64,000 nucleotides of DNA, taken from contig OX422200.1 of NCBI GenBank assembly GCA_949130485.1, positions 1,719,774 to 1,783,773 on the forward strand. Direction: 5' to 3'. The DNA is from Agelas oroides (lineage: Eukaryota > Porifera > Demospongiae > Agelasida > Agelasidae). Positions 43,132-64,000 of the stretch are shown one piece after another; the first letter of the stretch is position 1; every line of letters starts with the position of its first letter. The translations under genes and the position numbers were made by a program. The notes beneath the pieces were generated by a model. It made no database searches. It saw nothing but the letters and a program-made list of their open reading frames with translations, and was not told the origin of the DNA.

Positions 43132-46100
43132 ATGGCCTCCTCACCTGATCAAGGTGGTGAGCCTGATAAGCCACCTGCAACTGAAGAATTGCCAATGGCT
43201 GAAAAACACTACCCTAGACTGCTGGTATCCAACCTCAATCCAGGGAATTCGCGGGTAAGTAGAGCTGGTATGATTAGTTGCATATGAAAACTCATCAATA
43301 GCTTATAAGATTGACGAGTCAATTGTTTATTGGCAACACGTGTTTCAGGTTGTGCTAAAGCAGTACTTTGAGGGATACAAAGGTGGAGAGCTAAAAGTTC
43401 TGGACACTGAAATGTTCAGAACTGGAGAAGGCCACTCTGCAATTGTGACTTTGGATAATCCTAGAGGTACGAGCATACATTGCTTCACCATTTACTATAC
43501 AAGTTTGGAAACTGTTCCACTACTGTATTGCTTTTATTGGGTAACTGTTTAGCCTCATACCCAGAATGGCCTTGGTATGAGGCTAGGTAACTATTCCACC
43601 GCTGTGTATGGTATCTTGCAGGGGGAGTACAAGCCATTCTTGGTTCAACACAAGAGCGTCTTCTTGAAGAGCAGCTACAGCTGTGTCACCTGGTAAGAAT
43701 AAAATCAGAAGTAGCAGAAATTCTTGGTTCTCTAATCTGAACGTTTGATGCTTTATAAATAATTTGACTCTGCATCTAGTATACTGAGTCAACAACCCTC
43801 ACCATCTCTGGCCTGGAGCAACGTTTGCAAGAGAAAGCATTTGAGCTTGCTAGGAGATGGAATGTTGGTTGCAAACCACATGGTAGCGACAAGCTCTCAC
43901 TCACTGGACCATTCGAACTGGTTTATCATCTCAGACTTGAGCTCGATATGTGTGTTATGCAAGCATGTGGTGCCTCAAATGTTCATTTACTGCCTGGCTC
44001 TGTAACACCCCCTGTGCAATCTCGCATGCACCAACCACCCCATGCGCACCAACCAACCTCACCTCCCACTGCTGAGCTCCCCCCTTCACCTCCACCACCA
44101 ACAAGTGATTCTCCACACATCTTCTCAAACCTTAGCCCAGAGGTTTTAGCTCTGCTTGCAAAAATCCCAGAGGGGGATCTTCCAGGAGTACAGTATCACC
44201 CAAAAGATGGAACAGTGAACATTGAAAGTCGGTCAAAAGAAGAGCTGGAAGATCGCATCTCAAGATTCCAGACAGCCTACCAAGGGATACTCGGGGCTCG
44301 AAAGTTGAAGGTTGAACCGGTTGAAGTGCCTCCAGCCTTAGATGATGAAATAGCAGAACAGATCACAGCCTCTTTCAACAAGCAATACAATCAGTGTGTC
44401 TTCATCTACTATGCAGAGCCACGAGTTGTGAAAGTTGTCTCAACATCGTCACGGCAATTTGACCAGGCGAAGAAGCTGCTAGTTGAGGCATTGGCTTCTC
44501 GCCCAGATCCAAGTATTGCTACCAAGGTGGAGTTTTCATGCAAAGAAGAGGTGATTGTACTACCAGGTGGTCGAAAACTCAGTCTGAAGAAGGCTAACAT
44601 TGTGGAGGAGGAAGTCGATGTGATTGTGAATGCAGCCAATAGCCGTCTTTTGCATGGGGGTGGTGTGGCAGGAGCCATCAATGCTGCCAGTTGTGGTGAA
44701 GTGCAGAAGTATTCTGATCGCTACCTCAGCCGAAAAGGACCGGTTTCTGTCGGACAGGGTGCATGGACCAATGCTGGGGGGAACTTGAAATGCAATTTTG
44801 TGTTTCATGCTGTCGGCCCCGACAGTTCCTACACAAGGAATGATTGTGAACGCCTCCTGACTCAAGTTGTGAACATAGCACTTTCAAGTGCAGAGAAAGC
44901 CAATCATAATTCGATTGCTATCCCAGCACTCAGCTCTGGAATCTTTGGTGTTAGCAAAGACCTTGTAGCACGATGTGTTGTTGATGCTATCGTAAATTTC
45001 CGTTTCACCAAAGCCCCACCTGTTCTGTCTGACATCCGAATCGTTATAATCGACAAGCCAACCTACTCCTGCTTTGCTCGATACTTCGTTCAGAAGCGAG
45101 CACTCCTGAAGCAATCACCAAGGAAACCACTCGAGCCTCATGAATCTCAGAGTGCAGGTGTTGGCCGATGGGGACATCCAAACACCTCAGCTGCTCCAGT
45201 GTCTGGACCACCACCTCTTGAGCAAAATTCCGCACATCCACCGATGTCTATGCCCACCACAGCCCTACCACAAGGTCAATCAGTTGGTTTCAAATCTGAG
45301 GATAGCACAAAACCAAAAGGTAATCTTTCTCCACTACCTCATGAAGGTATAGTACCTAGTGTACAAAGGTTTTAACTGGTAATTTACTGTCTGTGTCTCT
45401 CCAGCACTCACTTTGGATGACCTGTCGATGCTGAATGCACACCTCCGTGGTGTTTCTAAGAAATGGTACAGCTTGGGGTTCTACCTTGGCTTCACCACAG
45501 ATGAGCTTGAGAATCTATTCTCAACAGTTGACGTCAACTGTGATCCTGCTATCTATTTGAGCAAGTTACTTTCAACTTGGCTACAGCGTGCCAATCCTCC
45601 CACACTGGAAGAACTTTGCAGGGCACTTTCCCATGAAAGATTTGGAGGGAAAGAGCTTGCACTGCAATTACTCCATTGTAAGTTCAATCATGGTGATTGT
45701 TTGACATTTGATAACTAGGTCTACTAAAACTTAAGTTGTTAATCATGTAGACAACCTTCATCAACATACTAGTAACTCTTTCATTTTCCTGCACAACAGC
45801 TCACAGAACTCAAACTACTACCACCAAAGGAAGCAAACCTGCGAGTGCAAACGCTATCAGCAACATTTCCGCACCTGTACCTGCAAACACAGGGAGAAAG
45901 CTAGCAGCAAATTTCACCAAACGTAAGGCACCAACACCCTTTACTATATTTAATGTGTATCACTTTTGATTTCTGTATTACAGCAACACCTGTTGTACTC
46001 ACTCTGGATGATCTGTCAGAGCTGAATGCACGCCTTCACGGTGTTTCGACAAAGTGGCAAGCCTTTGGACTCCAGCTTGGCTTTAGCACAGAAGCACTGG

Positions 46101-64000: not shown

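Follow-up and report, generated by a model that had tools for sequence, protein, structure and literature searches.

Vertebrate PARP14, PARP9 and DTX3L are separate proteins that cooperate, and the origin of this coupling between ADP-ribosylation and ubiquitylation is a standing question. The genes at the end of a 64,000-nucleotide stretch of the Agelas oroides genome (the window) raise this question in a particular form: do they join a macro domain, two Death-like domains and a DTX3L-class ubiquitin ligase (RING-DTC) in one polypeptide, and what might such a protein do? An earlier note on this DNA had proposed three head-to-tail paralogues, here called A, B and C, which spliced models and comparison of the three bear out. 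Gene A, spliced from the DNA, has 14 exons (43132-49338) that encode 1263 amino acids, with all junctions GT-AG and in phase. Gene C, with 12 exons (58094-67769 on the scale of the window) and 1403 amino acids, is in frame and open throughout; it ends 3.8 kb beyond the window, where its RING and DTC are located (66414-67769 on the same scale, locus L010). In gene B the reading frame stays open between the start of exon 2 (51292) and the stop codon (57855). Each of the three has a macro domain, two Death-like domains, a RING and a DTC. Pfam was applied to the spliced proteins of A and C; for B, the macro domain and B-boxes come from Pfam on its large exon, the DTC from a six-frame search, while alignment with A and C identified the RING and the Death exons. 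The features of the three genes are as follows:

43132-43254, 43349-43466 and 43622-43692, + strand: gene A exons 1-3, N-terminus with a marginal PARP14-type RRM (PF23085, 19.4 bits, cut-off 24)
43780-45319, + strand: gene A exon 4, with a leader, a proline-rich stretch, a region previously labelled KH-like (about 44101-44517) and the macro domain (about 44560-45102; Macro 5.2e-27)
45405-45677, + strand: gene A Death-like domain 1 (Pfam, alignment)
45984-46259, + strand: gene A Death-like domain 2 (75% identity to Death-like domain 2 of C)
46395-46725, + strand: gene A exon 8, a linker that evolves fast (same donor sequence in A, B and C)
47562-47821 and 47886-47999, + strand: gene A exons 9-10, a Gly/Ser/His-rich linker common to the array units
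48121-48302, + strand: gene A RING exon (RING 4.8e-10)
48464-49338, + strand: gene A DTC in three exons, to the stop (DTC 7.7e-58; six-frame matches)
49607-49840, + strand: gene B TRIM RING exon, with 7 nucleotides in excess that shift its frame (comparison with C, D, E and F)
51292-53495, + strand: gene B exon 2, one open frame with two B-boxes, a coiled-coil region, the region labelled KH-like and the macro domain
53575-53847 and 54157-54432, + strand: gene B Death-like domains, with a small exon between them (alignment)
54568-54898, 55626-55786 and 55853-55954, + strand: gene B linker exons
56087-56268, + strand: gene B RING (alignment with A and C)
56851-57021, 57080-57201 and 57768-57855, + strand: gene B DTC exons (six-frame search)
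58094-58320, + strand: gene C TRIM RING exon, intact (RING_UBOX 4.7e-10)
60418-62558, + strand: gene C exon 2, one open frame with two B-boxes, a coiled-coil region, the region labelled KH-like and the macro domain
62617-62889 and 63187-63462, + strand: gene C Death-like domains, with a small exon between them (Pfam, alignment)
63949-64000, + strand: gene C linker exon, which continues beyond the end of the window

The proposed fusion of a macro domain, two Death-like domains, RING and DTC in one polypeptide is well supported at the DNA level, by the phase-compatible GT-AG exons and by the constraint on the structured domains. Exon 2 of B, like that of C, holds the B-boxes together with the macro domain in one uninterrupted frame (775 and 758 amino acids, respectively), so the B-box-macro fusion requires no inference about splicing. 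The continuation into RING and a DTX3/DTX3L-class DTC, previously given for A and B, holds for both and applies to C as well, with its RING-DTC outside the window.

The array was correctly recognized as a tandem amplification, but three genes are too few, and the three-gene array is rejected. A search of the genome for the DTC family identified six array units and one locus on contig C19; the units downstream of C, named D, E and F, have their RING-DTC at 81558-83413, 91564-93434 and 97642-99795 on the scale of the window. There are also five TRIM heads, at 49607, 58094, 68854, 83703 and 94106, and the whole array spans about 57 kb. Over 3.4 kb, the TRIM heads of D and E share 98.5% identity. 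Searches of the array and the genome gave no macro or Death match in units D to F. Between its TRIM head and its RING-DTC, the fourth unit contains a protein kinase frame (78480-79511; PF07714, 3.1e-32) and the fifth a PARP14-type RRM that is over the cut-off (PF23085, 1.1e-7); these may or may not belong to the spliced units.

Each unit might instead comprise two adjacent genes, with exon 8 as the last exon of an (RRM or TRIM)-macro-Death gene and exon 9 as the first of a short gene for RING-DTC. The longest intron 3' of the macro exon is found at that place (836 nucleotides in A, 727 in B and 1675 in C), the frame read on from exon 8 soon meets a stop, units D to F show RING-DTC without macro-Death, and exon 9 of C, E and F opens with an ATG that could begin a separate RING-DTC transcript; the corresponding triplet in A, B and D, however, is ATT. 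A, B and C have the same exon 8 donor sequence, the exon 9 acceptor is kept in all six units, F possesses an exon-8-like tail with a donor about 140 nucleotides 5' of exon 9, and the phases fit across all 14 exons of A, which makes the two-gene arrangement improbable. One transcript per unit is what we infer.

The most firmly identified part of the protein is the RING-DTC tail. The DTC expected from the earlier reading was found by Pfam in the spliced proteins of A (7.7e-58) and C (6.4e-55), directly after the RING in the array units, as in DELTEX E3 ligases; spliced C also matches Macro (2.6e-27), two RING stretches and two B-box stretches. The best match of the DTC among PDB sequences is DTX3L (3pg6, 9.5e-46). 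In an unrooted tree of A, B, C and F, these four and DTX3L are separated from DTX1, DTX2 and the Deltex encoded on C19 (split support 100/99), with DTX3L forming a long branch of unsure placement according to the program's warning and the C19 row lacking its middle part. The catalytic pair of H582 and E608 in DTX2, corresponding to H707 and E733 in DTX3L, is called strictly conserved among DELTEX family members in the available part of PMC10810221. In both reference chains, the first His of an HH pair and the Glu 26 positions after it were taken as this pair, in agreement with the numbering given there; by this placement all six array units keep the His (WNDIHHKT) and have Asp in place of the Glu, whereas the C19 Deltex, the other Deltex of this genome, keeps Glu. 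Because of this substitution, ubiquitylation of ADP-ribose may be weakened or changed, and the array is DTX3L-class by domain and tree, rather than a proven ADP-ribose-ubiquitylating DELTEX.

It is accordingly possible, though the lesser prospect, that these are conventional lysine-directed E3 ligases recruited to ADP-ribosylated targets, with a DTC that binds ADP-ribose and does not ubiquitylate it. The Asp in six of six units, beside a His kept in six of six, departs from the pair described as strictly conserved in the portion of PMC10810221 cited above; yet Asp is still a carboxylate, and the DTC is under strong constraint (dN/dS 0.16-0.25). The tail of unit D has lost the stop position and is changed at otherwise conserved DTC positions.

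The macro domain common to A, B and C, another feature that the first reading had right, was found in the spliced proteins of A and C and on exon 2 of B. Its best PDB matches are chains of PARP14 (3vfq, 3q6z) and PARP9 (9qyd). Hydrolase activity of such domains has been linked to Asn and Gly around loop 1 and to a hydrophobic residue followed by an aromatic one in loop 2 (PMC10221186), and by reading of the alignment all three array domains have these features: NAAN in A, NPAN in B and NATN in C, with GGG and SGIFG in all three. The array macro domains are of hydrolase type by these loop residues, so that the term ADP-ribose reader understates what they may do. In the macro tree, whose genome rows are the three array copies and matches in four loci only, from 21 matches, several of them partial, the array grouped with a macro domain of the same genome, that of locus L044 (98/98, with long-branch warnings), and was not placed within macrodomain 1 of PARP14 or PARP9 (deep support 33/63). 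This macro domain, in the tree the closest to those of the array (L044 4559-5185, minus strand; C18:7130696-7131043), has altered loop residues and adjoins a protein kinase frame. A Peptidase_S51 match overlapping the macro domain was set aside as spurious; against a cut-off of 23.9 bits, exon 4 by itself scored 24.0 and the whole protein 22.3.

Taken copy by copy, the two Death-like domains match weakly. Against a Pfam cut-off of 22.6 bits for PF00531, the C protein scores 24.2 but the A protein 16.9, and the exon of the second domain of A has no Pfam match by itself. In an alignment of 16 members, 4 of them from the array and 12 relatives selected among the genome matches, 15 match PF00531 at E ≤ 0.1 (best 2.4e-8). 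At least 150 matches at E ≤ 0.001 to such domains were found in the genome among 546 candidates, 6 of them in the array itself. Searched against PDB sequences, the Death profile gave chance-level matches only, the best being neuroglobins at E 0.23.

The TRIM heads attributed to B and C are present in both as two B-boxes, and in C the RING, too, was found by Pfam and is intact. The TRIM RING exon of B (49607-49840) is 7 nucleotides longer than those of C, D, E and F, its frame breaking after CHYYCR and then meeting a stop; an internal ATG in exon 2 of B could start a B-box-first protein. The description of the proteins as dual-RING ligases holds for C, but not for A or for B as assembled. For the predicted coiled coil, the TRIM_CC match scored only 9.5 bits against a cut-off of 30. 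The TRIM exon of D and of E, and with less clarity that of F, has a splice donor at its end and is followed by an exon like exon 10 of A, the one before the RING; this arrangement is independent support for TRIM heads being spliced towards RING-DTC. In C the TRIM sequence passes into macro-side sequence at the position of the D/E-type donor, and in B the two sides meet within about 10 bases near that position. The old TRIM splice donor survives, weakened (AAG|GTACCC), at the fusion point in C (61240-61340), so a short TRIM-RING-DTC form might also arise.

Two components ascribed to the array were not confirmed. Shared KH-like modules receive no support from Pfam, from PDB sequences or from HHalign, and are rejected at the level of sequence and profile searches: Pfam identified no KH except a sub-cut-off SLS1-type match elsewhere in exon 4, PDB sequences gave chance-level matches to the region in question and no KH match, and HHalign gave no signal between that region and the PARP14-like KH stretch of the same genome. 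The region, found only in A, B and C in a search of the genome, may be a diverged KH fold. The second component is an ADP-ribose writer. None of the genome's 36 matches to the PARP domain (PF00644) falls within the array, so the expression "entire ADP-ribose-to-ubiquitin relay" is an overstatement, and a complete relay with its own writer is rejected.

The structured parts of the proteins evolve under constraint. For the region labelled KH-like, the macro domain, both Death-like domains, RING and DTC, dN/dS is 0.16-0.42 between A and C and between B and C, and for TRIM it is 0.16 (B-C). The first proline-rich linker, the exon between the Death-like domains and exon 8 have values of 0.71-1.01 in the same pairs; the exon 9-10 linker, at 0.36-0.45, is not clearly freer than the Death-like domains, so low dN/dS alone does not separate domains from linkers. 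Between A and B, Death-like domain 1 (0.60) and exon 8 (2.77) have few changes, and constraint is not demonstrated by them. Whole-alignment values of 0.34-0.50 include non-homologous heads and were set aside. Fisher tests, with an approximate share of synonymous sites, covered 13 of 31 domain-by-pair comparisons: dN was below dS in 11 structured comparisons, two of them A-B (one-sided p from 3e-3 to 2e-13), while two linker comparisons gave p of 0.17 and 0.56. Purifying selection acts on the structured domains, and most of the linkers evolve close to neutrality.

A and B are nearly identical from the region labelled KH-like to exon 8, whereas in RING and DTC B is closer to C, a mosaic that may best be explained by recombination or gene conversion. 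Unequal crossing-over might also have left an array in decay, made up partly of pseudogenes; the frameshift in the TRIM RING of B, the changes in the tail of D and the absence of macro and Death matches from D to F would fit such a history. With A and C open over 1263 and 1403 codons, respectively, and the structured domains that were tested under purifying selection, general decay is very improbable.

Possible writers are encoded elsewhere on the same contig (C18). Two PARP14-like genes are located at about 1.541-1.573 Mb, with the array starting at 1.763 Mb, and further along, at 3.10 Mb, there is a third locus of macro-PARP type. Both of the nearer genes have several macro and PARP matches, and the first, in which these were checked, also has KH_PARP14 and RRM_PARP14 matches. 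Their proximity to the array is a parallel to the linkage of human PARP14, PARP9 and DTX3L at 3q21.1 (PMC13224862, available part). The PARP14-like pair (L039, L040 and L042; C18:1.541-1.580 Mb) is on the opposite strand, about 0.19-0.22 Mb from the array, and kinase frames 85 and 89% identical to that of the array (L011 4480-5511) stand 5' of both genes:

L042 6481-7533; C18:1578796-1579791 (minus strand for the L042 frame): kinase frames near the PARP14-like genes

A kinase-PARP14 fusion is possible, as is exchange between the PARP14-like loci and the array. The TRIM, Death and kinase families of this genome are large, with 59, at least 150 and 119 matches to the B exon, Death-like domain 2 of C and the kinase of D, respectively (the array included). 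Elsewhere in the window there are a GGGA-type repeat (11686-12931, 1.2 kb), a 77-nucleotide unit repeated 12 times (13131-14088) and GGA repeated 110 times (17638-17968); a strong local base skew overlaps the first two.

The preferred reading, with a probability of roughly 0.6, is that the array encodes multidomain ubiquitin ligases of the DTX3L/DTX3 class, with a constant RING-DTC tail and exchangeable heads, directed by ADP-ribose and scaffolded by Death and TRIM domains. PARP14-like enzymes encoded elsewhere, two of them nearby on the contig, would put ADP-ribose on a target, to which the macro domain and the DTC pocket would carry the ligase. The RING would load E2~ubiquitin, and the DTC would position the ubiquitin on ADP-ribose itself or on nearby lysines. 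If its putative hydrolase activity is real, the macro domain could also trim ADP-ribose and make the signal self-limiting, much as macrodomain 1 of PARP9 seems to limit PARP14/DTX3L signals (PMC13224862, available part). The tandem Death-like domains, joined in TRIM-headed copies by the B-boxes and coiled coil, may gather the ligase on a scaffold and restrict its activity to the assembled state. Recombination would have given the RING-DTC tail its different heads: RRM-like with macro-Death, TRIM with macro-Death, and probably TRIM alone.

As inferred from relatives, the role of the array is probably in innate immunity. The available part of PMC13224862 describes PARP9 and DTX3L as acting also in DNA damage responses, and a role in DNA damage or RNA control could be considered on that account; however, tandem amplification, TRIM heads and Death domains appear more typical of animal immune families (compare the available part of PMC8195603), and such a role is unlikely. 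More specifically, and tentatively, the array may be a one-chain forerunner or parallel of PARP9:DTX3L, a modular immune array of six tandem units in which recombination in and around exons exchanges the heads (RRM-macro-Death-Death, TRIM-macro-Death-Death, TRIM alone, and possibly others from the nearby PARP14-like genes) of a constant linker-RING-DTC tail with Asp for Glu.

Several known systems resemble parts of the array. DTX3L, a DELTEX E3 whose binding partners are PARP9 and PARP14, shares its class of RING-DTC tail and, marginally in A, an RRM-like N-terminus. DTX3L proper, however, has an RRM and five KH domains (PMC13224862, available part) and no macro domain, whereas in the array a macro domain and two Death-like domains are present, with TRIM heads in B and C and Asp at the catalytic Glu, KH was not found and the RRM is below the cut-off. 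The PARP9:DTX3L complex likewise combines a macro domain having hydrolase-type loops with RING-DTC, but in two chains instead of one, and the array is without an ART domain. PARP14 has a related macro domain, an RRM_PARP14-type segment comparable to that of A (below cut-off) and counterparts on the contig of the array; it contains three macro domains, WWE and ART, in contrast to the single macro domain and RING-DTC of the array units. Amphimedon has six PARP14-like proteins with macro domains (PMC4245714), and fusions of the array type are not mentioned in the available part of that article. Locus L008, one of the TRIMs of this genome, encodes a TRIM-filamin-NHL protein with RING, two B-boxes and a coiled-coil region (44% identity from B-box to coiled coil); it ends in filamin and NHL repeats, whereas the TRIM head of the array runs into macro, Death and RING-DTC. 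The Death/TRADD-N expansions of animals, which include the sponge Amphimedon, also feature Death-like domains with many partners, and fusions to TRIM ligases are mentioned in a different TRADD-N clade; no macro-Death-RING-DTC combination was found in the available part of that source (PMC8195603), and TRADD-N had no Pfam match in spliced A and C. Neither macro-Death-RING-DTC nor TRIM-macro-Death-RING-DTC was found described among open-licence PMC texts searched by titles and starts of abstracts, which is weak evidence of absence.

If the one-chain reading is true, a macro domain and a DTX3L-type ligase would be physically joined in an invertebrate animal, whereas reports of PARP9 are confined to jawed vertebrates (PMC10221186). 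Such a natural fusion of macro with DTX3L-type RING-DTC is a Rosetta-stone case, which predicts that the vertebrate partnership is functional, and a single protein would let ADP-ribose binding, removal and ubiquitylation be measured together. The tail of the array also has Asp where the DELTEX proteins aligned in PMC10810221 have Glu, which provides a natural test of the DELTEX mechanism. Death and TRIM heads on a tail of this kind suggest that, in some animals, ADP-ribose signalling was linked to scaffolds of the cell-death type.
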